The notes beneath the pieces were generated by a model that was not told the DNA's origin, searched no databases, and saw nothing but the letters and a program-made list of their open reading frames with translations. This document shows positions 11,560 through 59,247 of a stretch of 64,000 nucleotides of DNA, in pieces. The DNA comes from Ptychodera flava. Lineage: Eukaryota > Hemichordata > Enteropneusta > Ptychoderidae. The stretch is taken from the NCBI RefSeq assembly GCF_041260155.1, contig NC_091932.1, forward strand, positions 12,826,441 through 12,890,440, given 5' to 3'. The position numbers were made by a program, and so were the translations under genes. Numbering within the stretch: position 1 is the stretch's first letter; every line of letters starts with the position of its first letter.

Positions 11560-11950
<391 letters not shown>

Positions 11951-13133: not shown

Positions 13134-13722
13134 TTAATCAACAGTTTCGTAATCAGCGTTTTCTGTAATCCTGTCATTTTCGATGTCGTTTCCACCATTG
13201 CTTCGAAGTGGCTCCCCTCCTTCATATGCAATATTTTCGACGAAACCTTCATCTTTCGCATTTCCCTCTCCGGAAATTCCATCCCGTGGCGAGCTATTAT
13301 TTTCAGCTTGATCAAAACTTTCGTAGGCGATATTTTCTTTAAAGCCGTGATCTTCGGCCTGGATCATATTTTTGTTCTGACGTGGTTCCCCACTTTCGTA
13401 AGCTATATTCTCGACGAATCCGCTCACAGACTGCTGTTGAAGAGCGCCCTCACTCAGTTCTCTGTCTCCCGGTTGGTTCGGGATTGTCTTCGACGTGGTG
13501 GTCGTTAAGGGTTGGTATTCACTCTTAGGTACCTTTTCAAGTTCAGTGTAGGAAGATTCTCCAGTGTCTGGCTCTAAGGTATAATAGAACGCTCCTCCCG
13601 AAGCACGGCCGTCGTTGTTATAGCTGGGGGGCATCTGCGCTGGCGTCTCGACAGAAGGCAAAGTTGTGTCGTATGCCAAATTTTGTAGTGTCACTCCAGA
13701 GTTCATTGCCGAACTTTTCAAT
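13134..13722 (-). CDS. Gene D exon 5, cytoplasmic tail with ITAM-like and NxxY motifs
   Basis: Starts LKSSAMNSGVTLQNLAYDTT. Three YxxL motifs, YYTL, YTEL and YQPL, lie at codons 13506-13586 with spacers of 8 and 7 residues; the centre reads YTELEKVPKSEYQPL and has Glu at -3 from its first Tyr, as ITAMs often do. Then FVENIAYESGEP, FKENIAYESFDQA, FVENIAYEGGEP and ITENADYETVD before TAA at 13134. Tyr-rich, acidic, probably unstructured, suited to kinase and adaptor binding. YESF and YETV are also possible endocytic YxxPhi signals. Confidence 0.9.
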
Positions 13723-16075
13723 CTACGAATAAAATAATAGTGATGTAGGCACATCAAATGTTTGCTCACATAAGGACTTCAAGCGTGAATCGTTACATTG
13801 CTTTTACGTATTTGCTTGTTATTCAGTTTTTGAATGATAGTGTTATATTTGAAGAGCACCTCATGGTATTTCCTTAAAAGATGTTGCTAGTGAAGTTCAA
13901 CATAAATAAGAAAAATACTGGAAGAAAAGTACTCGCGCAGGCGGCCGCATGCTGCTTACTGATACTAGGGATATACCTGACAGGTATGCTAGTCCAAGCT
14001 GACACACATATGTCACTGCACCTACCACGCGGTCGCTGCAATTGCGATCCCACAATGCTTGTGAGTCAAACATCCCTGATCAAGCTTCAATATTGTTTAC
14101 TTTGATTAAGATTTGCACGCGAAGACAATTTTAACATTTAAAAATAAATTGAATGGCAGCAGTATATTCGTTTGGATGAAAAATGTAACATCTTTCGATA
14201 GCTATAGAGCCGTCACGATTTGTGAAAGAGTCACCGTTCTAGCGCAAAGTATGCCGGTAGACGGGCCCTGGGCGAACTGCCGCGGCCGCCCGTTCGCCTA
14301 GCCAGGGTGGCCATCAACATGTGTGCCGAAGAAGAATTAAGTATCGTAAAAAGGTATTGTTTTCTATTGTGGGAAAAAAATATCCATAGTGAACAGTGAA
14401 CTCTCAATTTCAATTGAAATTACAATGCAAATTCCATTCTGCGAGAGCTTACAGGCTCGGCCCTATCGTGCACGATAAACAGGCCGGCGAAAGTAATAGC
14501 TACCACAATTACACGTAATACTACAAATTACCCCAGCTGTTTGTTGATAACCGTGTTTTATGAACCCTTCATAGTGTAAAGAAAATGAAAAGAATTACAT
14601 GTTCTTGATTATTGCTAACAATGCTTAGATATTTCTCCTGATGTTATGTGATTTGATGTAATTGAACAAGACCGGTACATGTAGCCACTGATAATGTTAC
14701 AGTAATTGATCAAACATATTCGTGTATTGCACTACGTCAGTATATCACATTTTGTTGTCTGATTGCTGGCGGGCTAAACTTGTATGATTGTGAATGTTAA
14801 ACGACAAATTTTGCAAGTACATACTCGACGGTAGCAACAATTGTATCAACCACAGTCACAAAAAACGGTGGTGCGATAAACACACATAAACACATAGAGA
14901 AACAGACAAACAAAGGAAAAAAACCCAGATAAAGAGAACGCCTACGATGCTAAAGGTCACTAATCATGGCCGTGAAAATCTAGTAAAAATAGTCAGATAT
15001 TAAGGGCTATCGGGATTTTTGTTGAAGAATTCAATTTCCATGCATTCGTGCCCCAATCGCACTTGGCATTTAACTTGCAGCATTTATAATTTGCTAATAG
15101 GTTTTCTTTTCCTAGTACCTTCCGCCCGATCTGTGAATCGTCCGATTCATGTGCGCTGCATCAAAATGTGCCCGAAAAAGTCACTCTAAGATAGGCTAGA
15201 ATTTGTAATTTCTTGATTCGTGATACTCACCGTCTTTTCCTGATTAAAGAATATGCAATGACGAGCAGGGCAAACACAACAAGTACGGCTATGACGGCTC
15301 CAATTATAGCTCCTGAATGTGAAGAATAATAGGGAAGAACTTTTCAATTGACTTTCGCAGGCATAAATTATGTCTTAACTCTTTGGTATCAACCAACAGT
15401 TACCTCTATTCAGAGTAATAAATCTAGTACCGGGCCTTCATATCATTCAGTCTACCAAATCATCTCGTAATGTCGTCTTTCCTCCCCAGTTCATCAATGC
15501 TATTGCCCACTCAACCGTAGACTGGCCTTTAGCCTACGCCCTGCCCTCGTCCTTTTGAGCAATTTTTTTTGTTTATTTGTCTGGCTCTTTGTCTTTGTCT
15601 GTCTTTACTTCTGTCCAAAGTTATCTTACAACCGTATCATTTCATAGATCCGATGGCTTCGGAGAAAGAATAGCTGAGAGGGCATGAACTTTGAGAATAA
15701 TTTTAAAAGGCCCTTTCACTGGCAATATCAAAATAAATTCGGGAATTTGTGTGACGTCCTATGCTGAGTAAGTCATCACATTCTGTAAGTCTATATCACA
15801 ATTGGAAGGCAAGAAGTCAGTGCATCAACACGAACTCCCTACTTTGAAAATCTTATAGTTTCTATTTTAAGTGGCGACAGGGGTAGAGCGGCCAGCGAGG
15901 GGTTGTGAGAGTCTAGTTTAAAATGAGTCAATGCCAGACGACTATCGTAGTATACGCCCTCTATAGACCATACATAATGATAATGATAATGATAACTTTA
16001 TCGACGTTATTCCCTCAAAGGTGAACATAGTCAAGAACTAATACTACAAAAAAAGAAAATAATACTTATCAAAAA

Positions 16076-16120
<45 letters not shown>

Positions 16121-19100
16121 TAAGATATAACTTTATGCAGAATATGAAATGTGGGGTAATCTTAAAAAATATCTGTTTCTTGGAAAATGTTGTGAGGTAT
16201 ATCATGCTATCTGTATTGCTCATTATGTAGTAAAATTTGGCTTGCAAATCCCAGTTGTTGAAGTTTTCATTGTTGACTGCTACATGAAGCTGTACATTCT
16301 AGGGATATCTTGACCTCTGGCGATCGATAGATATCGCGACCATTCTAACGAGTAAATCTGCCGAAATTGAAACGGTATTTATATCACATATATTTAACAT
16401 TTCACTGCAGTTCATAACTGGCATAGATTGAATATAACTAATCGATGCTAAATCTAAGATCTTAGGTTTAAATTTAAGTCTGAGATCTGGAATTTAAAGT
16501 CTTGCATGAGTCTGAGAATCTGAAAAGTCGACTCTACTAGGCTACAGGCCAGAATCAACCCTTCGCCATGCCCGGTACTCTCCTACAAAGACATTATTCC
16601 TAGCAAAGACCAAGTGTCCTACCTGTCTTGATTGAGGATTTGTTAGCTCCCGAATATCCGGGCCCGCCAGTGGAGAATTGATTATCGGGATCGGGTGAAC
16701 TCGGTGCATCAAAGGTTTGCTCCGTTTCAGGCCTGAGTAAATGTGATGTTGTAGTGGCAACAGTGTTGAGGGATGTTGCAGTGGCCAAACTGGAGCGGAA
16801 TCCCTCTGTGGTACTCATTAATGTGCTTGTTTCAATAAATTTATCTCTCTCCGATGAGGCATTACTCTGGAGTCCATCATTGTCCACAGTTGAAGTTCTA
16901 CGATGGTCAGATTCGCGTGTTACCATCGTAGGACGTTCCGTGAAGTCCTTGCGCTGGGTCGATACCTTGCTTGTTCCGATGGTGGTTTGGTTGGTTGATT
17001 CAGAATGAAAGAGTGGCGTCTCTACGCTGGCAGACGCAACGGTTGCTGCAAGAAAACACGACCAAATCATCATGTATTTACATGCGAAAATTTAATGTTC
17101 TAAGAATTTGAAGAAGGCACTGTCGAGTTAGACACTTTCTTTAAAATGAATTTTCCACATTTCTTAGGCCACTGACAGAAGGTCTTTGGACACTCCGGCA
17201 CGTATTCCCTTTGGCTTTCCGAATAATCAAACGAAACCAATGATCGGCACGAAGAACAATATCATGATATGATCAAGCTAATATCAACAATTGCGAAACA
17301 CTAACTTCCACACTTCACCGGTTGAAAACCATATATAGTCCAGTCAATCTACGAGATTTTGGCACCTAACCCACCACAAATTGCAACAGAATTTTTTTCT
17401 TCAGAATGCATTTTAGAGAGGTACCCAGAACAACATATTAAAAGTTTACTCGAATCCGCCTTGGGGAAATATGCCTAATTTGCATAAATCAAATATGGCG
17501 GCCAACCATCCAACAAAATAACATAATTGGCCATATATCATATGTTGAACAAGCTATTTCAGTGATTTCAAAGTCTGAAACTAGTTATTTGGCTCGGGGA
17601 CTCATTTTGGACGTATAATGTTTTATATAGGCACTTCATTAATTTGCATAATTCCAATATGGCTGCCAACATTCCTACAAAAGACATTTTCGGTCATAAA
17701 CAACGTATTAAACCAGCTATTTCAGTGATTTTTAAGTCAAAAGTATATTTCTTTGGCATGGACAAACGATTTTCGAGATGCAATGATTTGCATTGTTACT
17801 TCGTTAATTTGCATAAATCCAATATGGTTTCCAATATACCTGCAAAAGACATTTTCTGTCATATACTACGTATTAACCCTTTGAGCGCCAAAGTCTATAT
17901 TTTATCAACTTTATAAAATGTAGCAGAGTCAATTTTTGTGCTATTTGCCAAATTTTTGAAAAAAAACTGTAGCTGATGAAAAATGTATCCATTTTGTCCA
18001 AAATTATGAAAACAAAGTACAGAAAAGTTGACAGAAATTGGTAAAATATTGCATTATAATTTGGTGTAAAAATTACAGCAATCAAAGGGTTAAATCAGCT
18101 ATTTCTCTGATTTCAAAACTTAAAGTATAATTCTTGGGCATGAACAAACGATTTTCGAGATGCAATGATTTGCATTGTTACTTCGTTAATTTGCATAAAT
18201 CCAATCTGGTGGCCAATATACCTACAAAGGACATTTTCTGTCATATACCACGCATTAATCGTTTGAGCGCCGAAGTCTATTTTTATCAACTTTGTAAAAT
18301 GTCCACTGTCAGTTTTTCTGCTCTTTGCCAAAATTTTTATAAAAAACTGTTGCTGATGGAATATGATATCAATTTTGTCAAAATTATGAAAAAAACGTAC
18401 AGAAAAGTTCACAGAATTGGTAAAATATTGCATTAAAATTTTGGTGTAAAAATTACAGCAGTCGAAGGGTTAAGCAAGCTATTTCTGTGATTTTAAAGTT
18501 AAAAGTATATTACTTATGCATGGACATACGATTTTTAGGTGCAATGATTTGCGTTGGCACTTTGTTAATTTGCATAAATCCAATAGGTTGGCAATTTTGA
18601 AGTTTAAATATATTTCTTGAGCATGAAGAAACACCTTTGGCGGTTCAGATTTTTTAAAACACACTTTGATAATTTTCATAAATTAAATATGGCTGCCATA
18701 TAATGTCCGAATAGCTTCTAATATAAATAAGGTTCTGGTAGAGTTTTAAGCACTAGGTTTATCAAGAAGAAACTGTTAAGAGGGCACTGCACCCAACACA
18801 CCGTATTTTGACCAAAATAATTTTTTTGCAAATATTTATCCAATTGTGGTTAATTTGTTAAGCCAAGATTAAAAATTGGTTAAGTTCACTTTTTAGCTTG
18901 GCAAGCAGTCGTAAGTTGCATGATATAGTGTTAATGTATGCAAATGTATGCAAATCACCCGATTTCCTGCTTCCTTTTTTCCAATTTTAAGATTTCCAAA
19001 GAATTTAACTCCAGTCCTGCTGGGTCAAATATTCTGAAATTTTCACATTATGTTCTTTAAATGCGATATAACAAAACAATTATTTTGTTTTGCAATAAAA

Positions 19101-22100: not shown

Positions 22101-22832
22101 ATAGTTCTTTTCGTTCTCTCGCATTAATCTTACACTTTTATCAAAGTACGAAAACAATAAAGAAAAAAATACTCACTAGTATTAGTATGTTGGCATCTAT
22201 GCCCGTAGTAACCATTCGCACAATCACAATGGAAACCTTCTTCATCATCATTAGGTGTACAAGTTCCTCCGTTTTCACATTGTTCAAAGTGACTGATTGT
22301 TTTTTCCTCGCAGTATGTCCCTTGCCAACCTGCTGCACATGTGCAACGGAAAGCCATCGGTAGCAGTACATCGGTACAGCTACCGTCATTTGCACATGGA
22401 TTGCTACTGCAATTGTCTTGGGCACAAATTTGTCCAGTGAAGCCAGGAGCACAGACACATTTCATGTCCTCTGCTTCCTGGCAGGTAGCTCCATTTTCAC
22501 AGGGGTTATATGATTCACAGCTATGGAAATAGCCACTGCTGTAGTCATGGAAACTGTCGCTTACTTCTTCGTCGGATGAACTATACTGACAACTTTCACC
22601 ACTCCATCCAGCTGTACATAAACACTGGTACGAGTTTTGGTCGTTGGCTGTGCAAGTACCTTCATGTTGACACGGGTTACTTTCACAGACGATAGCCACA
22701 TCGCATAGTTTACCTGTCCAACCTTGTGAGCAAGTGCACCGGACACCGCGACCGTGTGGGTTGTCACATGTGGCTCCGTTCATGCACGGGTTGCTGCCGC
22801 AGTTACGTGCATTCATCTGTGCCGTTGTCAAT

Positions 22833-22907
<75 letters not shown>

Positions 22908-24770
22908 TTTTACCGTTTTTTAACTACGAACATAGTGTATGAACGGTTCTATATTTTTTTGAGATAACCTAACGACAGACATAAAAAAGTGAATTAAGCA
23001 CCATCTCAATAAATACAGCGACGCACCAGTACACTGTGATCTTGACGAGGACAGTCAGTAAGTCATTTGAAGTCCCTATGTTTTACTTTGCCACTCACGT
23101 GATCTGATCTGCATACACCGTTCCTTGCATTGATGAGTGGAACAGCACTATACCTGATCTTACTTTGCCTCATGTTTGATTTGTTCCATGGTACTATTCA
23201 GTCGTTGTTAGAAACGACTTCCCAAGGCTGCCAATCAGGTTATGGGCCCTCCGAGTTTGTCCAGTGCTGCCTGTTTGTAGTCCAAATGTATAAGATTAAG
23301 GTGGTATATCTATCTGTAATACATCTAAGCAGGTATACACAAAAACACTTCTGAACTTTGTACATAAACGGGACAGTTTTATGGAATGTAACTAATTTCA
23401 CGTCGAAATGAGACAAACTCCCGTAATTAAAGGGTCAGTAATGCTAACGTTTATGATGATTTTTTTCAGTATTTTTATTTTTTATGTCAATTGCAAGTTC
23501 TTATTTTTACTTCCAAAAGAACAGTTGAAACATCCGCCTTTTAGTTTGTCAACATTATTGTGAAAAGAATTGTTATTGTTTATATCTAAATTCTATTCTG
23601 GACTAGAATTTAATTGCCAACAATAAATGCAGTTTACACATGGTTAGGAAGTATTGACAAGATTAATACTGCGTATATCAACATAGTTGGGAGTACAACA
23701 AGAAATTTTGGTTGATATTAAAACTAAATTTTGAAATAGTAAAAAACTTAAAAGTTGGCAGCACTGGTTATTCAAAGTCATTATAGGAGTACATGTATAG
23801 TTTTACAATATAGGTGCATAAGCTATCATTAAGGTCAGTAGTTCATCCGTAGTTTGAATTATGTCTCCGAGTCGTTATGGTGACAAAGTTTACAATTGTT
23901 CCATTGTATGCACTGAGAATCACACTTCATATCATGACGAAAATGTGGCTTGCCATCGTATTCCGTATATTTTCCTGTAGCTTATTGATCACAGTCAAAG
24001 GTCCACGCTGACGTGTCAGTTAATATGCTGTTAATATATCTTCACGCACATCACAACTTTGTGCGAATGACTATGTGTGTTTACTGTGGTTACATACTCA
24101 AGCTAGATACATGGAAATGAGAGTGAATTACTTCCACACTATGTTAACGTGTTTTATTTTATCCATGGTTCTTGTGAAATGCATTTATTACACTTCAATA
24201 TTGTGGTACAACTTGTTTGAACTGTGAGGAACGTACAGTTTTCTGGCAATTGAAACACGGTTACCTTATGAAGGGAATTTGAATTATATATACATTATCC
24301 GGTCAACAATATCAGTGCGTGTGAAGTTTTTGAGATTGTTCAGACCGGCATACAACCAGATTTAAAATATGTGTACAGAAAGGATACTAGAATGGGAGCC
24401 TAAATCTCGTACAGACAAGGAGAACACTGCAAACAAAGGCAAGAGTTGAGAGTTTTGTCCTCTCAAACAATGGTACTTTCTCCTAATCAAAATGGCGGCG
24501 CGTGATGGAACATTACTTTGCATTACCCACTTGAAAAGAGCCTGAAGGGCAATATTTGCGATTGTAACATGCCATTCTTGACAAACTCTGGCATGATAAA
24601 GTATGTGCGAAACTAGAAATTGGTCTGAACGGCTCCTAACAGACTCAAAACATTGTTTTGAGAGTAACGGGCGGTACCTGGTCGGGTTATGACTCACTCT
24701 ACAAAACTTGCACACACTCACCTGCATGTGTTGTTAGCCGGAAGAATAGTATGAGGCAATATATGTACAT
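13134..24770 (-). CDS. Gene D: intact multi-EGF, ITAM-tailed type I receptor
   Basis: Five exons, 24722-24770, 22177-22833, 16623-17045, 15231-15312 and 13134-13722, join with matching phases to exactly 1800 nt, 599 residues. Layout: 16-residue signal peptide, about 219 residues with five EGF-like modules, 141-residue Ser/Thr-rich stalk, TM helix, 196-residue tail with three YxxL motifs and five NxxY motifs. EGF modules plus YxxL and NxxY tail motifs are the hallmark set of the engulfment receptors CED-1, Draper and MEGF10, but the EGF modules here are of the ordinary six-cysteine kind and no EMI domain is seen. A role in phagocytosis or immune recognition through Src/Syk-type kinases and PTB adaptors is inferred. 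The 5.1-kb intron 2 holds a large fold-back element. Confidence 0.85.
13506..13586 (-). other. ITAM-like triple YxxL in gene D tail
   Basis: YYTL, 8 residues, YTEL, 7 residues, YQPL. Both pairs satisfy YxxL/I-x6-8-YxxL/I. The same arrangement is kept in gene C (28200-28280) and gene B (40682-40762) despite changes between and inside the motifs. Confidence 0.75.
13723..15230 (-). other. Gene D intron between TM and tail exons
   Basis: No coding signal. Matches in part the same intron of genes C (28.4-30.7 kb) and B (40.9-41.9 kb). Confidence 0.6.
15231..15312 (-). CDS. Gene D exon 4, transmembrane helix
   Basis: Phase 1-2 exon of 82 nt encoding AIIGAVIAVLVVFALLVIAY then SLIRKRR. Acceptor ATTCAG, donor GTGAGT. 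Single pass; the basic RKRR places the following exon in the cytoplasm. Confidence 0.9.
15313..16622 (-). other. Gene D intron between stalk and TM exons
   Basis: Non-coding; resembles positions 270-1029 of gene E. Contains an (AT)n run at 16079-16117. Confidence 0.6.
16623..17045 (-). CDS. Gene D exon 3, Ser/Thr-rich stalk
   Basis: Phase 1-1 exon of 141 codons; acceptor TTGCAG, donor GTAGGA. Starts TVASASVETPLFHSESTNQT and contains SLNTVATTTSHLL; ends GANKSSIKT. High Ser and Thr content and no cysteines: a mucin-like stalk. The gene E exon is the same type but lacks about 34 codons near the start. Confidence 0.8.
17336..21719. mobile_element. 4.4-kb fold-back (long inverted repeat) element in gene D intron
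   Basis: Ends TAGTCCAGTCA at 17336 and TGACTGGACTA at 21719. The outer 560 bp or so of each side are inverted copies (for example 17.45-17.60 kb against 21.47-21.62 kb), and further in there are more inverted stretches (18.7 against 21.0 kb; 19.63 against 20.93 kb). Inside are three direct copies, about 380 bp apart, of a unit with TTGCATAAATCCAATA (near 17.76, 18.14 and 18.52 kb). No transposase frame is present. A 2-3 base AT target duplication is possible. Best read as a non-autonomous DNA transposon. Confidence 0.75.
22177..22833 (-). CDS. Gene D exon 2, five EGF-like modules
   Basis: Phase 1-1 exon of 219 codons. Modules begin CGSNPCMNGATC, CESNPCQHEGTC, CESYNPCENGATC, CSSNPCANDGSC and FEQCENGGTC. 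The first four have all six cysteines; the fifth has five, because the first is replaced (TISHFEQC here, IICYFEEC in the gene E relic). A 23-residue acidic, serine-rich linker (SSSDEEVSDSF) separates modules 2 and 3. The splice acceptor CAG is immediately preceded by the (CT)n microsatellite, which serves as the polypyrimidine tract. Donor GTGAGT. EGF modules mediate extracellular protein contacts. Confidence 0.9.
22836..22905. repeat. (GA)n microsatellite at gene D EGF acceptor
   Basis: About 35 GA units, (CT)n on the coding strand, ending directly in the CAG of the EGF exon acceptor. Confidence 0.95.
22906..24721 (-). other. Gene D intron 1
   Basis: No coding signal. 23.0-23.35 kb matches 3.07-3.3 and 6.3-6.4 kb; 24.2-24.7 kb matches 6.4-6.95 kb, as expected for duplicated units. 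Confidence 0.55.
24722..24770 (-). CDS. Gene D exon 1, signal peptide
   Basis: ATG at 24770; encodes MYIYCLILFFRLTTHA and ends in phase 1 before GTGAGT. It differs from the MERH-type first exons of B, C and E, but LLNN lies just upstream in the same frame and matches the MERH exons, so the start has moved downstream in this copy. Short but hydrophobic enough for a signal peptide. A relic of the same exon type is at 6943-6990 in gene E. Confidence 0.7.
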
Positions 24771-27824: not shown

Positions 27825-28416
27825 TTAATCAAAAGTTTCGTAATCAGCGTTTTCTGTAATCTTGTCATCTTCGATGTTGGTTCCACCATTGCTTCGAAGT
27901 GGCTCCCCTCCTTCGTATGCAATATTTTCGACGAAACCTTCTCCTTCTTTCGCAACTTCCCCGCTAGAGATTCCATCTCGTGGCGGGCTGTTATCAGCAG
28001 CCTGGTCAAAACTTTCATAGGCGATATTTGTTTTGAAACCATGATCCTCAGCCTGGGTAGTATTTTGGGCCAGACTCGGTTCTCCTCCTTCGTAAGCTAT
28101 ATTCTCGACGAATCCGCTCACTGACTGCTGTTGAAGAGCGCCCTCACTCTTGTTTCTGTCTTCCAGTTGGTTAGGGGTTTTCTTCGACGTGGTGGTCGTT
28201 AGGGATTGGTATTCACTCTTAGGTACCTTTTCAAGTTCAGTGTAGGAAGATTCTCCAGTGTCTGGCTCTAAGGTATGATAGAACGCTTCTCCCGAGACAC
28301 GGCCGTCGTTGTTATAGCTGGGGGACACCAGAGCTGGCACCTCGACAGAAGACAGAGTTGTGTCGTAAGCCAAATTCTGTAGTGCTACACCAGAGTTCGT
28401 CGCCGAACTTTTCAAT
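27825..28416 (-). CDS. Gene C cytoplasmic tail, ITAM-like with NxxY modules
   Basis: About 197 residues, complete to TAA at 27825-27827. Near the membrane is LQNLAYDTT. Then YHTL, YTEL and YQSL with spacers of 8 and 7 residues (codons at 28200-28280). Then three modules, FVENIAYEGGEP, FKTNIAYESFDQA and FVENIAYEGGEP, and a last ITENADYETFD. The YxxL spacing fits the ITAM rule YxxL/I-x6-8-YxxL/I; NxxY motifs are possible PTB-domain sites. The rest is acidic and probably disordered. Confidence 0.85.
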
Positions 28417-31400
28417 CTAAGAATAAAATAACAGCGATGTAGGCACATCAAACACTTGCCCATATAGGACTTCAGGCGTGAATCGTGAAATTCAACGGCG
28501 TACACTATGTGCTTGTCGATCATTTTGAATAATAGTGTTATGTTTCAAATGCACTTCAAGGTCGGTGATGTTGCTAAGTAGCATGAACTAGAATAGTATA
28601 GGATACATGGAATAGCATTGAGCAGTTTTAAAACTTCTTACCTGAAAGCTTATTAGGTATAATTTTTGTGTTTGTGACTTTTAGTTTTCTTGTCAAATTT
28701 GTTTTTGTTATCTTGTGTGATTGCGCATTTTTTTCTCCTATGTGCAGGTTCACTCCTGGCCACTTTTTTTGCGCATGTATTGTTCTAGCTTTGTCTGTCA
28801 TGTATCATGTTGTTCTGCTTTGTATCAGTTTGTATGTTCATCTGAGGGCCCTGGGGAAGATAAGCATCTTTACTGAAGCTTACCAGGCTACCCTCGTTAA
28901 ACAAGGTTTTAATTAAATAATAAAAATAGAATAGTATACGATAACTAGGCAAGCGAAATTAACAACTTCTGCTATCAGGTATTCCTAGAACGTCATCATA
29001 AACATTACTTTAATTAGTTTTTACCAACAATTGCACCAGCTATAGCTTTGAGAGCTGTGCTAAATGAACCCTTCAAGTGTAAAGAAAAGAATAAAAAAAC
29101 TGCCGACAATACTTTCCGTGTTTTAATCACGGTAAACAAGACTCACACATGCTTGCTACTAACAATGTTGATTGTCGTGGATCATACATAGCTTTCCTTG
29201 ACAATACAACGTCAGTACATGTGTTGTATGTTTCTCTGTGGGCAAAATTTGTACGAATCTGAGGGTTCAATGTCGTTTTGCGAGTACACGACAGTGGCAA
29301 CAACAGTATCCGTACGTTTATAGAAGAGCTCGTCCAATAAACGAACACACGACATACACAGAAGCAACAAACCAACCAAACAAACGCACAGATAGAACAC
29401 CAAAGATCGCTAAAAAGCACTTATTATGGCGTCAAAATGTGTAAAATGCACAAAGGTGCCATCGGACCATTTGTTCAGGAAGTCATATTCTATGAGACTA
29501 ACAGTGCACTTTTCATGCAAGGGTGTACCACATTCTTGCGTCGCAGATTTACAACTACCAACAGGTTCTTTTACCTACCATCAGATTTGGAACCCTCTTT
29601 GAATATCTCAATTAAATAGGTATTTACAGTCATTTAGACCAGGCTTACAAATTTATCGATACCCTAAAAAATCTTTCAAATTCCTCAATTATGTGATCAA
29701 AATTTTCAAGTCCCCCAACTATCATATAGCCGCATATTTATTAGGGATATACGTGCAGATAAAATAAACATGTATTGCACAGTTCTGCTCGCAGATGTTC
29801 GACACAAAATGTCTTTTACGCACACATAAACATTCTGTTATGATTATGGAAATGTTGTCAGCTGTATATAGAGCCACATTCCTACGACAACTTTTAAAAG
29901 GGGTTCATTGTAAATTCATCAGTGGACTTTTTAGATTTATCAGTCTAAGCCGGCTTGGGTTGATCCAAATATGGTTGGGCAGTGGAACCCGCTGAAGAGC
30001 CCCAGTGGACGTCCATGACAGTATGCAAGTTGTTATTTCCTTGCTACACGTTGCCAAATAATGAAAAAACTTAACATGGTGGCCATAAAAGTACAAGACA
30101 TATATGACGTAGACAGACTTTGTTGACAAAATGAATATTGTGTTTCAACATGCTGTGGGGAGACAGCAAGAAACTGTATTTGATACATCGCATAGAAATA
30201 TTGGGAATGTTATCAACAGTTGCAGCTTCCGCCCAATTACAATGCCAACACGTTGTTTTTCTCATGAAAATTCAATGGCTTTTCGAGGTAAAAGTCATGA
30301 AAAGCGACAAAGTGGTTCTAGATTTTGTGTAACTTTTGTGTAATTTTTGTGGAGGGACCGTGTTTTTAATAACATTAGGGAACCACTGGATGACGTAAAC
30401 ATGTTATTCATTTTTCATTGAATTACCTACCAGACAATGGAATCTGAAAATGTAAAAAATATAGGGAACCAAAATATTTTGAGGCCCCACCAAAAACTTA
30501 TGTCCCCCTTACTACCCCCTGAATTTGAAAATCCACCCCGAGTTCCTCCAGTTTCCCCAGCTACCATGGCAGTATTTGTGAATGCAGCCTTGTTGTACAT
30601 ATATTGTTTAATATACTTGCTACATCAAAGCTCTTTGTTACATTAATATTAATAATGATTTCTTGATTTGTATTCATACTCACCGTCTTTTCCTGATGAG
30701 AAAATATAAAATGACGAGTAGGACCAACAAGACAATCACTGCCATGACAGCTCCAATAATAGCTCCTAGTCGTTACAGAATAATAGAAAACTTTTCACTA
30801 CATTCACAATCATAAATTACGTCACGACTCTTTAGCATCAACCGCCAGTTCCCCCTAATCAGTGCAATAAGTCACTTCACCGAGTCTACCAAATCATGCC
30901 GTAAAGTCGCCAACCCTGGCCAATTCATCACTCCTCATATATCGCCTACTCAAGCGTATGCCCTGGCCCCTGCCTTTATGCCAGCTAGTTTTTTGCAATC
31001 CCGCTTCTGTCACAGTGTGTCTATCTGCCTATCCCATGTTGACATACAACTTAATTAAACTTTACTGTAATCATAGACTCTTTTTTACGAGGGTCTATGC
31101 TGTACTATAGAAATCTGAGGGAGTAGAGCAAGACAACATATGAGTAGTAATATACATGAATGGAGATGGCTAATGAACCTTCTTGCGACAAACAACACCA
31201 TAAATCGGAAATTAGTTTTCTTTGCAAACTAAGTCACAAACATTTTCAAATGATTTAAGGTATAATCCGCTTCGTTGAGAGATATATGGCGTCTTAAGCT
31301 TTTATAATACTCTTGCGGTCTAACACTTGGGGCTTATTTTGAAGCTTATGGAGTAAATAGAACGTTCACAAGCTTAGTTTTGTGAAAATTGAAATTTTAA

Positions 31401-34400
31401 TTTTTCCCCATAGAGTTAACATAGGGATGGCGGCCATTTTGAATGTCAAGTGTCAGTAAATATTAGGAAATTTGTACCGTTTTTTGCACGGCGACCCCTG
31501 ACTTTTATTCTTGGTTTCGAAAGGGAATTGTTTAAAGTAGGTTCCGCGTTAAATGTCAACAGACCATAGTCCACTCAACGAAATTCTTTTCTGTTTTTAT
31601 TCGGGGCATATAGGAAATGTTAGGTATTGATACTGCAGATAAGGAGGCTTACCTGTCTGGCTTCTTTGTTTTCTACCGTTTCCATGTCCCGGTACAGGAG
31701 TTGAAATCGTCTGTCCTGGATAATGAGGTGAAGTCCAAGCATCGGTAGGAAGCATAGAGCTACCTGAACGTGATGTCATGTCAACACTTGGATGCAGGGA
31801 ACTGGAGGGTGTCGTTGATGTGCCATCTTCAGGAAATGGGTCAGTTCCCGTTTCTTCGCTCTGGCTCTCACTGTCTGTACTTGAACTTCTTGGATAGACT
31901 GACTCGATCGTTGTTGTCGCCGGACGCGTTGTGATGTATCTTCGCTGAGTCGTTACCTTGTTTGTACTTTTAGGTAAATCCTCTGTACCAGCAGGTGTAG
32001 CGGATGCTACAATACAACACGTCGTAGGAATTATATCTATCATATATTCTAGAATTTTTGAGGGAGTTCCGTCGGCGAAGAGATCGCCTCAGTGAAATTA
32101 CATCAGGAGCACCCATTTTTAATACAACATCCTCTCTAAGTTAGTAAGCAAAGTTGCTGAAGTGCGAAGAATTGTTACTTCGCATGCGTTTTTGTCTATG
32201 TTAAATGGCATTTGTCAGAGGTCGTGATAAAACTTTAAGATTCCTTTAAATCCGAGCTAACTGTTATTATATTAGCGGATAAAAAAACGAGAAAAAACAG
32301 TTCGTGTTGTTTATGAAGAGTAATTGTTTAACATATTTTATAACTTACAAAATCACCACACAAAGACAAAACATGTAATGAAATAATTATAAATAATACA
32401 CTCACATAACAGTTCACATCTATCACCATGGTAACCAGGCTCACATTAACATCGAAAGTCACCATGTTCGTTGGGTGAACAGTATCCTCCATTTTCACAT
32501 CCTTCACCACATTCGCACTGAGTGGGCGACGGTGTGCTGGCACACATGCCATTATTTTCACAAGGATTGCAAACGCAAAAATCTTCAGCACTGACTTTTC
32601 CTGCGAAGCAGAGAGTACAGACACATTTCAAATCATCAGCCTCCATCCAGATAGGTGTCTCCGTTTTCGCCAAGGAAATATACTTCAAAACGGCGAAAGT
32701 TTTCGCAAGTTTTTTACTTTACTGCTCTGACACACAAGATTATGTGAGTTTTCATGCAAGCAGTTACTCCGTTACACTGTCTGCCTGTTCTTCTATGGGT
32801 AGACCACTTTTTAAGCTCATGACTACAAAACTTTCGACAAAACGTGACCAGAACTTAATAGAATCTTCTGTACTTGTATGATTAGAAGACATGACATTAT
32901 GATGTAACTCAACAAAGGAAATATTCCTGTTGTGATGAAGTATTTGCTTAATACTTGATAAATGTGTTTGTAAAATTGACCTAACTTCTATATTTCAAAT
33001 TTAGCATAAATGAGCATTATTGATATACAGAACAGCTGTTCAAGTTGTATCGTAGTATTAGATGACTTTCCGGTACTACATCATGGCTTCGTTTAATTCA
33101 ATGTTGCACCTCATCCCAAATGTTGTTTTAACAGTTTAAACTGAGGGTGGTTGTAATACATTTTGCACTTACTAGAGTCACCCTTAATTATTACTGGTTT
33201 CTCGTTCAAATGATCTGATCACTTTTTTCCTTCTTGATCCACGACACTTACGTATATATTTGTAACAACTTACTGATGAATTCATTTCGTATATTTACAA
33301 TTATTGTTGGAACCGTGGTGAACGCAAAACAAGCATAACATAATCTTTGAAATTTGGCCTTGCTTTAGGAAATATAAATTTTAAACCTTCATCCCAAAGT
33401 TTCTCAAGAATTATATCCTAAAGCTCCGACGTTTCCAAATCCTTTTTATTATGGACATTTTCTTGTCAGCAAATGAATTTCAAAACGAAGCTATATCGAA
33501 AAATAATATCATTTATGCTGTCTGACTTTTAGGTAAGAAGGATAAAGGAAAACTTCTGCATAAAACCGGAACTGCTTACTCATCTTTTACAGCAATTGTT
33601 GAAGAATATCTGAGTTTGTATATTTACTTCTTGATCTACGTGTCAAATTAAATCCTTCTGAAATATTGTCCATTTTCTGTAATGGCGATTGTGGAAATGC
33701 CCTTCATTCTCATTTCTTAAATCGGCAAAAAATCCACTGAACACAAATATTTTCACTCTGCGATATTCGATAAAAGTTGCCAGAGTCGAATAATTAGCAT
33801 CACTCATAAATGATTACTACCCTTTTCAGTAATAGAGCGCGAAGCCACTGCGCGCAGTGAACTGCAATAAAACTGCTCACACTAATTAGTTTCAGCTGTA
33901 GCCAGCTGGCAAAGTCGACGACATTGTATGTCCCATGCAGACAGTTTGTCTGGGGAAGTTGAAATAAAAAAGATTTGTACATGGACCAGTGCATGGTAAT
34001 GTTACATTGTATCTTAATCTTGAACACAGGGTGCCAATCGTAAACTCTCATTTACAACTCGAGCCTCAGACAGAGCTAGTTTTGCCTTTGTACAAACAGA
34101 CTTTTTGGTCTTTATCAAGTAGCCTTGTTCAACACCAAAGTGGCCACGGCTACAGCTGAAACTAATTAGTGTACGCAGTTTTATTGCAGTTCACTGCAGT
34201 GGCTTCGTGCTCTATTACTGCAAATGGTTGTAGAACGTAACTATTGAATTAATCACATTAAATACAGACAGAACTTAAAATATCACTTCGCTGTCCTTTT
34301 TCTTCTATAAATCAAACGAACGTTTGTGCTTCATACCTCACGCTAAAAGTACTATCTTGACGGTTATTATAATGAAGGGCACGTCTACCGAACAATTTAG

Positions 34401-35001
34401 TTTCTTCCAATCAGACGCAACACAATTTTTTTAATTTTCTCAGTCTGGCAAGACATTCTGGAGTGATTGTAAGCGAGGATTGGCGAAGTTTCAGACTCGA
34501 TGACAGCATTTTGTGTCGACGGAGAAATGTAAAAATGAAAATTACCACAACCTATGAGCCTTTTCCATTCTCTCAATTATTGGGTTGTGGTAACGTATAG
34601 CTTTTCAATAACTGCTGAAGAATCACATTTGTAGCGTGAGATCTATACATTTCTACTGGATCAAAATGGCGGCGGTCAATGAAGCATTGCAAGGAGAATA
34701 AGATACCTACATGGCGTTTCGTTAAACTCCATTAAAGTCTTCAGGGTTGTAGTGTGTTGTTGCTCAGAATTTTTGTATCATCTGTGATACAAATTTTTCG
34801 TCACTTTTTTAGTTGTTTAAAGCTTGAATAGGATAAAACAGCTTGTTCTTATCGACGCTACATTTACACCATTCGTGACTCATAACCGTTAGCATTATGA
34901 CTCGCACACTAAACTTGCCCATACTCACCTGCATGTATTATCAACTGTAAGAATAGCGATAAGTGGTACGCGTTGTTCAGCAGCCGAATGTGTCTCTCCA
35001 T
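27825..35001 (-). CDS. Gene C: ITAM-tailed type I receptor, EGF exon decayed
   Basis: Exons 34929-35001 (signal), 31653-32006 (stalk), 30684-30765 (TM) and 27825-28416 (tail) have matching phases and join to 1101 nt, 366 residues with a complete tail. The EGF exon in the first intron carries a stop and frame breaks and is left out of this model. Since signal exon and stalk exon both meet at phase 1, skipping the EGF exon leaves an open reading frame: signal peptide, mucin-like stalk, TM, ITAM/NxxY tail. The tail is close to that of gene D. Transcript evidence would be needed to know whether the short form is made. Confidence 0.7.
28200..28280 (-). other. ITAM-like triple YxxL in gene C tail
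   Basis: YHTL, 8 residues, YTEL, 7 residues, YQSL. Spacing identical to gene D. Confidence 0.75.
28417..30683 (-). other. Gene C intron between TM and tail exons
   Basis: Non-coding. Partly matches the same introns of genes B and D; nothing else recognised. Confidence 0.5.
30684..30765 (-). CDS. Gene C exon, transmembrane helix
   Basis: Phase 1-2 exon of 82 nt encoding AIIGAVMAVIVLLVLLVIL then YFLIRKRR, one helix and a basic stop-transfer end. Acceptor GACTAG, donor GTGAGT. Confidence 0.85.
30766..31652 (-). other. Gene C intron between stalk and TM exons
   Basis: Non-coding; includes at 31.3-31.5 kb a repeat with ATGGCGGCCATTTTGAA also seen inverted at 4.15-4.4 kb. Confidence 0.5.
31653..32006 (-). 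CDS. Gene C exon, Ser/Thr-rich stalk
   Basis: Phase 1-1 exon of 118 codons, with TTRPATTTIES, RSSSTDSESQSEETGT and TSTTPSSSLHPS. Acceptor ATTGTAG, donor GTAAGC. Mucin-like stalk, shared with gene B. Confidence 0.75.
32405..32690 (-). pseudogene. Gene C decayed EGF exon
   Basis: Minus-strand remnant of the third to fifth EGF modules: DDLKCVCTLCFAG, CNPCENNGMCAS, then GCENGGYCSPNEHGDFRC. A TAA at 32446-32448 falls inside the C-x-C of the last module, and the first Cys-rich part is out of frame. The GTGAGT donor is still there. Read as an EGF exon that has lost coding ability. Confidence 0.7.
33827..34220. mobile_element. Hairpin element (about 80-bp inverted arms) in gene C intron 1
   Basis: Left arm 33827-33907 with CTAATTAGTTTCAGCTGTAG, right arm 34141-34220 its reverse complement with few mismatches; about 230 bp between. 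No frame inside. Looks like a miniature inverted-repeat element. Confidence 0.7.
34929..35001 (-). CDS. Gene C exon 1, signal peptide
   Basis: ATG at 35001; encodes MERHIRLLNNAYHLSLFLQL then IIHA and ends in phase 1 before GTGAGT. One residue (Ser for Leu) differs from the gene B exon. Confidence 0.8.
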
Positions 35002-40329: not shown

Positions 40330-40898
40330 TTAATCAAAACTTTCATAATCAGCCTTTTCTGTAAATCTGTAGGCATCTTCGATGTCGTTTCCACTATTGC
40401 TTTGAAGTGGCTCCCCTCCTTCATATTGCAATATTTTCGACGAAACCTTCTCCTTCTTTCTCAGTGTCCTCTCTGGAAATTTCATCTTGTGACGGGCTTT
40501 TATCAGAAGCCTGGTCAGAACTTTCATTGGCGATATTTGTTTTGTGATCCTCAGCCTGGATAGTATTTTGGTCCACACTCGGTTCTCCTCCTTCGTAAGC
40601 TATATTCTCGACGAATCCGCTTTCAGATTGATGTTGGGGAGCGCCCTCACTCTTTTCTATGTCTCCCGGTTGGTTGGTCGTTAAGGGTTGGTATTCACTC
40701 TCGGGTACCTTTTCAAGTGCAGTGTAGGCTGAATTTCCAGTGTCTGGCTCTAAGGTATGATAAGTCGCTTCTCCCGAGGCAGGACCATCGCTGTTATAGC
40801 TGGGGGGCACCAGAGCCGGCACCTCGACAGAAGACAGAGTTGTGTCGTATGCCACATTCTGTAGTGTCACTCCAGAGTCCATTGCCGAACTTTTCAAT
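40330..40898 (-). CDS. Gene B cytoplasmic tail, ITAM-like, frameshifted
   Basis: Starts LKSSAMDSGVTLQNVAYDTT. Carries YHTL, YTAL and YQPL in ITAM spacing (codons at 40682-40762). The first FVENIAYE module is intact; the second has Tyr replaced by Asn (TNIANESS); the third is cut by a 1-base insertion near 40425 that gives ENIAI and a stop at 40421. Without the extra base the frame would continue to 40330 with FTEKADYESFD, as in genes C and D. Confidence 0.75.
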
Positions 40899-43800
40899 CT
40901 AGGAATAAAATAGCAGTGATGTTGGCACATCAAACACTTTCCCAAATAGGACTTCAAGTGTCAATCGTGAATTCCAACGGCGTGTGTGCTGGCCAATCAT
41001 TTTGAATAATAGTGTAACAGTTATCTTTAAAGAGCACCTCTGGGTCTGTTCTCAGGTGATGAGAAATAATACTCTTATATAAAAACAGCCCTTGTAGTTA
41101 CTGATTGACATGGCAGTAGGTCATAAGTCATTGATTTGGCCTGTTGATTCTGATGAATATTTTTAATATTATTTTATTGTTATTGTACATTTTTGTAAAC
41201 GGCAATATGGCTGCCAAAGTGCACCGATTTAAACGCCTTTCGCAAACTTGCTGGCACTCCCATTGATAATTATCTGAGCAGAAAATTATGTTCAAGTTCT
41301 GGACGCCAAGGTCATATGATCAATTAAAACCTAAGTATACCATGCACTAGTATACTTTCTAGCCCCGATCAGGGTGTGAAGTTTCGTAGTGACACGGGCA
41401 GTAGTCTGTGAGATTACGACCGACAAAAAAATTACGGAAGAAGAATTACGGAAGAAGAAGTCACAGAATTCGGAGCAAAACCAACATGGACCCACGCCAA
41501 GTAGGCTTGGGCCATAACAAACACATAAACGAACAGACAAATAGAACACTTACGATGCTAAATGGCACTAATCATGGCCATGAAAATCTATAAAATGCAC
41601 CAAAACACCATCAGATATCGCTTTTTTGTTCAAAAAACATACTCTATGAGACTACAGATTTCAAGCATGCATATGCCACATTCTTGCATCGTAGATTTTT
41701 AATGGCAAGCAGGTTGTATTTACCTACCATCAGATTTGGTACTCTCTCTCTCTCTCTCTCTCTCTCTCGAAAAACGCTGTTGAAAAGTCATTTATTGTAC
41801 ATATATTGTGTGGTATGTTTGGTACATCACAGATCTTTGTGATATTAACATTAACAAACAACCTTACTTTGAACTGAGAAACACACCCAGCAGTTGAGTA
41901 ATCGACTTTTCGATAAAAAAGAGTTCCGGTTTCGTGATTTGTGTTTAATACTCACCGTCTGTTCCTGATGAGAATATATAATAGGAAGAAGACGACCAAC
42001 AAGACAAGCACTGCTATGATAATTCCAATTATAGCTCCTGGTCATTAAAGAATAGGGGAAAACTTTTCATCACATTCACAATTATAAATTATGTCTCCAG
42101 CCTTTGGCATCAACCACCAGTTTTCTCCATAGTCAATGCAATAAATCATTTCACTAAGTCTATCAAATCATGTCGTACAGTCGCCAACCCTCGCCAATTC
42201 ATCACTGCTATCGGCTACTCAAACGTAAGTTGACCCACGCCCTGGCCTCTGTCTTTATTCCAACTTGTCTTTTTTTGCGAATCTTTCGCTTTGTCCGCCT
42301 ATGTATCTCTCTGCCTATCCCTACTTGACTTGCAGCTTTATTCAACTGAGAGAAAACTGACCTAGAAATCTGAGGGAGTAGGGCGAGAGAACATCTGAGT
42401 AGCACTGGGACATGAATAAATATGACTGAACGAAGTATTCTGCTACAAACAACGCTATGTAAAACTATTTTTGTTCGCAAACTAAATTACAATAAATCGC
42501 CTAGGTTCCATGTTTCAACTAACCCGCCCACAGTTCCAGCTGCTCAATGCTTTTCTGTTTTTTTACCTCTCATACAGGAAATTGTATATACAGGAAATAC
42601 TGCAGATAAGGAGGCTTACCTGTCTCGATTCTTTGTTTTCTACCGTTTCCATCTTCCGGTGCAGGAGTTGAAATCGTCTGTCCTGGATAATGAGGTGAAG
42701 TCCGAGCATCGGTCGGAAGCACAGGGCTACTTGAACGTGACGTCATATCCATACTTGAATGCAGGGAACTGGAGGGTCTCGTTGATGTGCCATTTTCAGG
42801 TAATGAGCTAGTTTCCGTTTCTTCACTCTGGCTCTCAGTCTCCGTACTTGAACTTGTTGGATGACTTGATTCGATAGTTGTTGTCGCTGGACGCGTTGTG
42901 ACGTCTGTCAACTGCGTCGTTTCCTCAGTTGTGCTTCTTTCAGTTTGGTAGGTCGATTCATTAGATACAGGGTACGTTGTTGGTGAGTTCTCTGTACCGG
43001 TAGTTGTACCAGTTGCTGCAATACAGCATATGCATATCGTAGGAATTATAACTAACTTATATATACTTGAAGTTTTAAGTCTGCGAAGAGATCGCCTTTG
43101 AGTGAAATTGCATCAGGACAGGGGTGTATGCAGTGGCGTATTTTCAATACTCTACAAACCCTTTCTGAATAAGTGAGCCAAGTTACTGAAGTGTGAAGAC
43201 TTCTTACTTTGCATGCGTCTTTGTGTATGTTAAAGTGTCATGATTTAACATTCTTTTAAATCCAAGTTAATTGTTACTTTATCTTCATAGCAGAAAAAAA
43301 GGAAAGATCTGCATCAATCGTTAATGAAGGGTAAATTGTAAATTGTTTCACATACTTGATTAATTACAAAATTAATACACAAAAACAAAACATGTCATGA
43401 AAATAATCCACTTATATGTCAGTTTACGTCTACCGCCATCGTAACCACGTTCACAATAACATCGAAAGTCACCATGTTCGTTGGGTGAACAGTATCCTCC
43501 ATTTCACATCGTTCGCCAGATTCGCACTGAGAGGGCGACGGTATGCCAGCACGCATACCATTATTTTCACACGGATTGCATACGCAAAATCTTCAGCACT
43601 AGTTTTTTCCCTGCGAAGCAGAGAGTACATACACCTTTTGAATCACCAGCCTCCAGAAAAGGTTCTCCATTTTCGCCAGAGATCGTAGTAGTACGTAGGT
43701 CGAGCAAGCTTTTTTGACTCTACTGTGCCTGCAAACTAGGGTGCAAACTGCCGCACGCCCGCCATTCGAACTTGAATTGCATCAACGGTTTCGAACCCTT

Positions 43801-44941
43801 GGCTCTCGCTGCAATTCGTCAACTTTCGCAGTCGCTCAAAATAAGAGTGAATCACGGTCACTGAATGAATATATTTCACGTTGAAGTTCATTTTAGCGTC
43901 GCCAACTTGGATATTTATCTGCTGGATTTCAAACCACGGCCCAACCAGCTGCAATACTGGCAAACTGAACTCGAGTTGAGTGTTTTTTACATTGAAAAAA
44001 AACCTAGGTCGTTTTCCTCAGGAATTTGTTCGAAAGTCCGTTTCCGATTTATAGCAGACAACACCGATCTTTCCTTGCCGTGATCGCATTTACTAAACGT
44101 AAGTTATACAGTACACGTTGTGCGTATCCCCGGGTGCGTATCGCTGGCCGCCATATTGTTAGTAACCTATTGGCAACGATGAATGACATATAGGTTTCGC
44201 GCTAGTTCTCGCGTGATTTTCTCTTTTTTTTCTTGCGTGCGTGATTATACGGAATTTTTCTTTCCTTCTTTCACTTCCGCGTCTACATAGCTCTAAAAAG
44301 TCTGCTCGGAACAGCGCATTTTTTTCTGTTTGGCCTAATGAAACGTCTACTGAACTAGTTAGTTTCTTTCAATTGGATGCACCACTTTTTAAATACTTTT
44401 CTCAGTCTGGCAAGACATTCCGTCTGGAGTGATTGTAGGCTAGGCTTAGCGTGGTTTAAGATTGATGGCAGGCTATTTGTCGACGGACAAAAGTACAAGT
44501 GGAAATTTCCACAACCTATAATCCCTTTTAATTCTCTCAATTATTGTAGTAGCGTGGAGCTTTTCAATAATTGCTAAATGATCAAATTTGTAGCTCCAGA
44601 TCTATACATTTCTACCGGATGAATTGGCGGCGGTTAATGAAGCATTGTGTGGCGTTTAACTCCATTGGAGCCTACAGGGGCGTAGTGTACCGTTGCTCTG
44701 CATTTTTGACAAAATAGCATCCGTGAACCAAATTTTTCGTCGCTGTTTTGGCTGTGTGAAGCTTTGATAGGATAAATATAAAACAGCTTATATTCCACGC
44801 TAGACTTTTTTTACTCATAGTGGTACAGGTCGCGTTATGACGCGAACACGAAACTTGCCAACACTCACCTGCATGTATTATCAACTGTAAGAATAGCAAT
44901 AAGTGGTACGCGTTGTTCAGCAGCCGAATGTGTCTCTCCAT
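40330..44941 (-). CDS. Gene B: ITAM-tailed type I receptor, EGF exon decayed
   Basis: Exons 44869-44941 (signal), 42620-43015 (stalk), 41956-42037 (TM) and 40421-40898 (tail) join in phase to 1029 nt, 342 residues, ending early at a frameshift; the ancestral stop is at 40330. The EGF exon at 43.4-43.7 kb is broken, so the product as read would have no EGF module. The tail keeps the three YxxL motifs in ITAM spacing. The stalk is closest to that of gene C, so B and C look like a recent pair. Either a decaying gene or a functional EGF-less receptor; the sequence alone cannot decide. Confidence 0.65.
40682..40762 (-). other. ITAM-like triple YxxL in gene B tail
   Basis: YHTL, 8 residues, YTAL, 7 residues, YQPL. 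It lies ahead of the frameshift, so the motif would still be translated. Confidence 0.7.
40899..42619 (-). other. Gene B introns around the TM exon
   Basis: Non-coding apart from the TM exon at 41956-42037. Contains a (CT)n run at 41742-41768. Confidence 0.5.
41956..42037 (-). CDS. Gene B exon, transmembrane helix
   Basis: Phase 1-2 exon of 82 nt encoding AIIGIIIAVLVLLVVFFLLY then ILIRNRR. Acceptor GACCAG, donor GTGAGT. One hydrophobic helix with basic stop-transfer residues. Confidence 0.85.
42620..43015 (-). CDS. Gene B exon, Ser/Thr-rich stalk
   Basis: Phase 1-1 exon of 132 codons, acceptor TTGCAG and donor GTAAGC. Rich in Thr, Ser and Glu (TRPATTTIESSHPTSSSTET, SEETETSSLPENGTS). Reads as a mucin-like stalk between ectodomain and membrane. 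About 70-80 percent alike by eye to the gene C stalk exon. Confidence 0.75.
43407..43690 (-). pseudogene. Gene B decayed EGF exon
   Basis: Minus-strand remnant aligning with the third to fifth EGF modules of gene D and with the gene C relic. Against gene C it has a 2-base gain, a 1-base loss and another 1-base loss, so the frame breaks repeatedly. The sixth cysteine of the last module is Arg (GGRRKL), and the GT donor has become AT. It could not be spliced or translated as an EGF exon. Confidence 0.7.
44869..44941 (-). CDS. Gene B exon 1, signal peptide
   Basis: ATG at 44941; encodes MERHIRLLNNAYHLLLFLQL then IIHA, a clear signal peptide with basic start and leucine-rich core. Ends in phase 1 at a GTGAGT donor. 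Nearly identical exons start genes C and E, which supports the choice of start. Confidence 0.8.
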
Positions 44942-58862: not shown

Positions 58863-59247
58863 TTTTGCCTACTAATTACTGCCCGTCGCTGCCCGTCCTG
58901 AATGTAGCCTATCTATAGCTACAGTAATCAGTCAATATATAATACCCCGCGCCTTATAATTTTTATATAAACCACAGTCTCTCTATCCACGAGGGACTGT
59001 GTATAAACTTATAAAATCATAGTCCGTGCCGTAAAATTGTTGACTTTCGATGCGATATACAGGTTGATCGTTGAATCGCACCGGCGCATCCATATTTACT
59101 TGCCCATAAGTTTACTACTCTGTAAAGGGTGGGTAGATGGAATTCCTGGGCCAAAAATGAACACCGGGGCGAAACTTTTTGTGAACCCATGTGAAAACAT
59201 AAATCATTTATCAGTTTTGATATATACTCCTAAATTGTAAGTTTGAT

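Follow-up and report, generated by a model that had tools for sequence, protein, structure and literature searches.

Receptors with Tyrosine-Based Tails

Draper and MEGF10 both have an ITAM alongside NPxY motifs, and Draper-II has an ITIM, as described in an excerpt of PMC8092387. The sequence rules for the two motif types are printed in an extract of PMC10008955 as YxxL/I-x6-8-YxxL/I for the ITAM and (I/V/L/S)xYxx(L/V) for the ITIM. The use of such tails by invertebrate receptors is an established principle, with ITAM or ITIM tails reported in immunoglobulin-type receptors of cnidarians, tunicates and oysters. The allorecognition genes (Alr) of Hydractinia have ITAM and ITIM motifs, and the FcoR tails of Botryllus are given ITIM, hemITAM and single core motifs, with no full ITAM, in the portion of PMC12065747 that covers them. 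The motif of oyster CgIgIT2 is termed an ITAM in the review text excerpted from PMC11999971, yet the title cited there names an inhibitory receptor. In the snail Biomphalaria sudanica, the SudRes1 cluster has MEGF domains in 10 of its 23 genes, and one haplotype shows EGF-domain loss (PMC12297450, in part).

The locus described here lies in a window of 64,000 nucleotides from the hemichordate Ptychodera flava. Genes designated A to E and an EGF fragment at 11.6 kb lie on its minus strand, and gene D is predicted to encode a receptor with three YxxL motifs in its tail (Table 1). Like Draper, MEGF10 and CED-1 as characterized in the PMC8092387 excerpt, gene D appears to be single-pass, with EGF-type repeats and a tail holding both YxxL-type and NxxY-type motifs. 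It differs from these receptors in having three YxxL motifs rather than one ITAM and five NxxY motifs that lack proline; its model is also without an EMI domain and its EGF exon is nearest to Delta-like and Notch proteins in the PDB. With Alr, FcoR and CgIgIT2 it shares the character of an invertebrate single-pass receptor with a YxxL-type tail, and with Alr and FcoR the setting in a gene cluster (excerpts of PMC12065747 and PMC11999971). The ectodomains of those receptors are described there as immunoglobulin-type, with a sushi domain added in FcoR, in contrast to the EGF domains and stalk of gene D. The SudRes1 cluster is similar by description: the available part of PMC12297450 reports clustered paralogous MEGF genes, some of them single-pass, with EGF domains lost in some copies. 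Unlike gene D, the three single-pass MEGF genes detailed there (of ten) have intracellular tyrosine phosphatase domains in place of a tail with tyrosine motifs.

Table 1. Positions of gene D, its tail motifs and related genes within the 64,000-nucleotide window.
Feature	Position	Strand	Remarks
Gene D exon 1	24722..24770	minus	probable short signal peptide MYIYCLILFFRLTTHA, by eye; GT donor, phase 1
Gene D exon 2	22177..22833	minus	five EGF-like domains; phase 1-1; splice sites
Gene D exon 3	16623..17045	minus	Ser/Thr-rich (mucin-like) stalk; phase 1-1; open frame, splice sites
Gene D exon 4	15231..15312	minus	hydrophobic segment AIIGAVIAVLVVFALLVIAYSLIRKRR, transmembrane by eye; counterparts in C and B
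Gene D exon 5	13134..13722	minus	whole 195-residue cytoplasmic tail and stop codon; acceptor GTAG, in frame of exon 4
YYTL	13575..13586	minus	tail residue 46
YTEL	13539..13550	minus	tail residue 58; also fits ITIM rule (SSYTEL)
YQPL	13506..13517	minus	tail residue 69; also fits ITIM rule (SEYQPL)
NxxY motif 1, NLAY	13671..13682	minus
NxxY motif 2, NIAY	13398..13409	minus	in GFVENIAYE
NxxY motif 3, NIAY	13323..13334	minus	in GFKENIAYE
NxxY motif 4, NIAY	13224..13235	minus	in GFVENIAYE
NxxY motif 5, NADY	13149..13160	minus
Gene C exon 1	34929..35001	minus	probable signal peptide
Gene C EGF exon	32413..32646	minus	decayed, in-frame TAA
Gene C stalk exon	31653..32006	minus
Gene C transmembrane exon	30684..30765	minus
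Gene C tail exon	27825..28416	minus	intact; motif layout as in D
Gene B exon 1	44869..44941	minus	probable signal peptide
Gene B EGF remnants	43417..43630 (approximate)	minus	split over frames
Gene B stalk exon	42620..43015	minus
Gene B transmembrane exon	41956..42037	minus
Gene B tail, present reading	40421..40898	minus	triple kept; frameshift in last NIAY repeat, then stop
Gene A tail region	47300..47820	minus	two NIAYE-type repeats, one YxxI (YESI), no YxxL triple, two frames

Exon Model and Domains of Gene D

The gene D model comprises five exons, with GT-AG at all four introns and agreeing phases of 1, 1, 1 and 2, and the joined frame is open over 599 residues. The predicted protein starts with a probable signal peptide, followed by five EGF domains and a stalk rich in Ser and Thr; after these come a hydrophobic segment, the basic sequence RKRR and a tail of 195 residues. 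The Pfam EGF family matches the joined protein in five stretches (E 2.6e-30), and the best PDB match of the EGF exon is Delta-like protein 1, followed by Notch chains. The hydrophobic segment of exon 4 and the RKRR after it are in frame with the tail (by eye), which points to a cytoplasmic position of the motifs; across D, C and B the basic stretch reads RKRR/RNRR.

At E up to 1, Pfam lists 13 families for the 599-residue model, and no kinase domain is among them. The original prediction had placed the motifs in an "EGF receptor" tail. In the sense of a receptor tyrosine kinase this term is ruled out and, since the model has no kinase domain, "EGF-domain receptor" is the appropriate name. EMI is likewise missing from those 13 families (E up to 1), and an unseen exon could account for this. 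Because no EMI domain was found, the analogy to Draper that had been proposed is limited to the tail and does not extend to the ectodomain. Membership of the Draper/MEGF10 group was considered and is ruled out on the present model, in which neither EMI nor NPxY was found.

The tail gave no PDB match up to E = 10. Its AlphaFold prediction, weak in that the alignment holds three rows of close sequences, has a mean pLDDT of 49.2; residues 41-70, which cover most of the motif block, reach 69-80 when averaged by tens and form two short strands in the same weak three-row prediction. Pattern searches for relatives of the tail returned 215 matches in viral contigs and 31 in genome contigs, and none was confirmed, which is in line with the gene being eukaryotic. 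Among the literature matches listed, from a collection searchable by text and not by sequence similarity, no paper was recognisably on this gene family.

Two features of the upstream exons were observed in addition. The opening ATG of exon 1 in genes B, C and E aligns by eye with ACG in gene D (24722-24830, minus), where the start would be the next in-frame ATG, giving a short signal peptide. A long (CT)n microsatellite at 22834-22906 forms the polypyrimidine tract directly before the EGF exon of gene D, and a change in its length could alter splicing of that exon.

The YxxL Triple

Retranslation of 13506-13586 reproduced exactly the coordinates, motifs and spacing that had been predicted for gene D. 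The 27-codon block, read on the minus strand from 13586 down to 13506, translates as YYTLEPDTGESSYTELEKVPKSEYQPL, with the arrangement YYTL-x8-YTEL-x7-YQPL. The triple is also present at the same spacing in the translated tails of gene C (YHTL/YTEL/YQSL, from 28280) and gene B (YHTL/YTAL/YQPL, from 40762), and in all three tails both neighbouring pairs fit YxxL/I-x6-8-YxxL/I, confirming the two overlapping ITAM pairs that had been described. By sequence, the triple conforms to the ITAM rule, and an ITAM function is putative. An extension of this rule adds an acidic residue one to three positions before the first tyrosine. With this residue required, one of the two pairs passes in D, both pass in C and one of two passes in B.

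The triple is rare given the composition of the tail. At x6-8 spacing it arose in 5 of 20,000 shuffles of tail D, 2 of 20,000 of tail C and 1 of 20,000 of tail B, a test that preserves composition alone. Across 269 six-frame open segments of at least 60 residues (22,460 residues), there were six matches to the triple: the tails of D, C and B and three overlapping matches, in two frames, within one YIYIYI repeat array. Relaxing the spacing to x6-12 added a single match, on the plus strand at 59010. Pairs matched 30 times in the six-frame open segments, six of these in the three tails. The best explanation of the tail is that it acts as an ITAM-like docking site, a tentative reading with a probability of roughly 0.42.

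The same residues may be read with the opposite sign. The ITIM rule is matched twice in each of D, C and B, by SSYTEL/SAYTAL and SEYQPL/SEYQSL, with a serine at -2 that is constant across the three genes. In an inhibitory tail, the second and third motifs would form tandem ITIMs that recruit a phosphatase of the SHP2/Corkscrew type through its tandem SH2 domains, with the first YxxL as an accessory; Draper-II binds Corkscrew through its ITIM, according to the excerpt of PMC8092387. A looser ITIM pattern, with Thr at -2 and Ile at +3 allowed, occurs at least twice in 952 (D), 1287 (C) and 644 (B) of 20,000 shuffles. Shuffling therefore yields such matches more readily than it yields the triple, and the ITIM fit carries less weight as evidence. 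This reading also offers no account of the first motif or of the regular spacing, and it is considered rather improbable.

NxxY and YxxPhi Motifs

NxxY sequences can bind PTB domains, and YxxPhi is a sorting signal recognized by AP-2. The tails of D and C each contain five NxxY motifs (NLAY, three NIAY and NADY), which the original prediction did not include. At least four NxxY motifs occurred in 120 of 20,000 shuffles of tail D and 34 of 20,000 of tail C. The gene D motifs are without the proline of canonical NPxY.

A unit of the form GFxENIAYE was seen three times in tail D (13134-13409, minus) and three times in C, with two related units in gene A (47321-47476, minus). This unit may be a PTB-type docking repeat. 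A motif scan of the gene A tail region found no YxxL triple, despite the NIAYE-type repeats there. As gene A shares these repeats and lacks the triple, NxxY is the more widely shared signal at this locus.

All three YxxL motifs also fit YxxPhi, and further matches are YESF and YETV/YETF in D and C, and YEHV and YESI in gene A. The tail could be a sorting tail, in which unphosphorylated YxxPhi motifs are read by AP-2 and, together with NxxY, direct a scavenger-type receptor into clathrin-mediated uptake and on to lysosomes. The additional YxxPhi matches in D and C speak for this, as do the five NxxY motifs of each and the related NxxY repeats of gene A. Sorting predicts no regular x8/x7 spacing of three motifs, and this role is deemed distinctly unlikely.

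Copies of the Gene in the Array

Genes B and C are close copies (dS 0.19-0.26), partly decayed, and are not orthologues. Comparison of the EGF exons of D, C, B, E and the 11.6-kb fragment showed that of D alone to be intact. The gene E exon (2140-2940, minus) has several stops and the 11.6-kb fragment (11561-11773, minus) at least one; the two copies have one stop in common, at an equal Cys-stop-Cys position. No tail of gene E was found within the window by tblastn with tails D, C and B as queries.

In gene B, the second NIAY reads NIAN. The last NIAY repeat (40421-40435, minus) has one base more than in D and C, and the resulting frameshift leads to an early stop; the out-of-frame remainder at 40333-40431 is still similar to the end of tail D.

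With the EGF exon left out, C and B each read as signal peptide, stalk, transmembrane segment and tail in a single frame. The EGF exon has phase 1-1, and its skipping is therefore permitted. C and B could accordingly be read as stalk-only proteins produced by EGF exon skipping, a prediction at the level of the transcript.

Selection on the Tail and Its Motifs

It had been proposed that the motifs are kept while nearby residues differ. As a description this is correct: 6 of the 27 block columns vary among D, C and B, and none of the six Tyr/Leu columns does. Such invariance is no more than expected by chance, with P = 0.18 within the block and 0.085 over the tail, where 52 of the 157 ungapped columns vary. 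The comparison of synonymous and non-synonymous change that had been suggested for the three tails gave a weak answer. Over the whole tail, Nei-Gojobori omega is 0.45 (D-C), 0.61 (D-B) and 0.67 (C-B). The same pairs give 0.63, 0.96 and 0.61 in the 27-codon block, where synonymous changes number 1 to 3 and non-synonymous ones 2 to 6. The non-synonymous rate of the block is the 12th lowest among 156 windows of 27 codons, but synonymous changes are few there as well. The columns common to D, C and B together contain 30 synonymous and 66 non-synonymous changes, with a pooled omega of 0.63, 0.75 and 0.83 at kappa 1, 2 and 3 (one-sided P = 0.028, 0.12 and 0.23).

Between D and C, dS is 0.053 in the block versus 0.242 over the whole tail. 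An identical run of 71 bases, synonymous sites included, extends over the block in this pair, a length reached in 26 of 10,000 shuffles. In the other two pairs, the longest identical stretches measure 46 and 45 bases and coincide with the NIAYE repeats; they are less unusual, being reached in 385 and 1606 of 10,000 shuffles. Because synonymous changes in the block are few and the 71-base run is present, gene conversion may have homogenised this part of D and C. Conservation in B and C was dropped as independent evidence, on account of their status as close copies, the broken EGF exons, the non-significant columns and the D-C run. The paralogue comparison shows no significant selection on the tyrosines or on their spacing.

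These results bear on the possibility that the tail has no dedicated role. It would then be rich in tyrosine, change fast and belong to a tandem array in decay, where YxxL motifs that lay close by chance were copied by recent duplication or gene conversion. In favour of this reading are the disrupted EGF exons of C, B, E and the 11.6-kb fragment, the frameshift and lost second NIAY of tail B, the non-significant invariance of the motifs and the D-C identity. Against it stand the rarity of the triple by composition and the indels of the tail, which are fewer and more often in frame than those of the flanks. The absence of a dedicated role is regarded as unlikely.

The indel contrast was found in each pair. 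Between D and C there is one indel (3 bases) in 588 tail positions versus 10 in 300 flanking positions (P = 0.00013), counts that vary with the aligner: under other penalties the D-C tail had 7 gap positions, versus 10 and 14 in 135 and 120 flanking bases. The contrast has P = 0.00035 for D-B and P = 0.0008 for C-B. Indels in multiples of three make up 10 of 12 in the tail and 6 of 40 in the flanks when pairs are pooled, a count across non-independent pairs in which the events of B enter twice. The D-C alignment of the stalk exon (69% identity) has 22 gaps, many of them not multiples of three though the exon is open, and that of the transmembrane exon between D and B has two 2-base gaps, though this exon is open as well. 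The pattern is specific to the tail among the gene D exons compared. Since its indels are rare and mostly in frame, the tail seems to be preserved as a reading frame, and among the measures applied the indels give the clearest indication of constraint. This preservation says nothing particular about the YxxL triple.

Proposed Function of the Tail

In the ITAM-like reading, the product of gene D would be a single-pass receptor with EGF domains and a stalk rich in Ser and Thr; its long tail, for the most part without fixed structure, would act as a platform for tyrosine phosphorylation. A Src-type kinase would phosphorylate two or three of the YxxL motifs, and a tandem-SH2 protein, most likely a kinase of the Syk/Shark family, would dock on a pair of them. 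The five flanking NxxY motifs could bind PTB-domain adaptors and so couple the receptor to endocytosis or uptake, the part played by NPxY in Draper and MEGF10. The motifs, their spacing and rarity, the coherent exon model and the signs of a kept tail frame are observed; expression, membrane topology, phosphorylation, partners and output of the receptor are deduced from them. The ITAM interpretation originally put forward is partly supported.

Syk-family kinases have a reported range from sponges to primates (PMC9601881, in part). An excerpt of PMC2820527 reports that Syk is absent from C. elegans, that Drosophila has Shark only and that the schistosome Syk SmTK4 is without the conserved ITAM-binding sequence. 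Given the cases of C. elegans and Drosophila, Syk is not universal, which counts against the ITAM-like reading. The fit of two motifs to the ITIM rule, the non-significant invariance of the Tyr/Leu columns, the possible homogenisation of D and C, the missing proline of the NxxY motifs and the gene A tail without a triple count against it as well.

A tail with two registers is a further proposal. A tandem-SH2 protein would bind either motifs 1 and 2, with one ITIM fit and an activating outcome, or motifs 2 and 3, both ITIMs, with an inhibitory outcome. The NxxY motifs would flank this switch, and C and B would supply stalk-only forms by EGF exon skipping. As part of the same proposal, the signalling tail would stay in frame across the array as the EGF ectodomain decays. 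The combined scheme is thought highly improbable.

Should the tail bind a Syk-family kinase, as the ITAM-like reading predicts, signalling of the ITAM type would extend to another class of invertebrate receptor, with EGF domains and a mucin-like stalk. It would also be situated in a tandem array with decaying ectodomains and retained tails, and would support the ITAM logic as an old and portable module.

Other Features of the Window

The gene A region contains CUB, WSC and SRCR open frames, taken separately and not as one joined model, and its ectodomain seems unlike that of D and C. In its tail (47290-47830, minus), a stop follows VTYMNT and the NIAYE part lies in another frame, which would reflect a frameshift or an unseen intron. 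No tRNA was found in the window. An Rfam match to the histone 3' UTR stem-loop is located at 59445-59490 on the plus strand, with 37.4 bits against a gathering score of 34.
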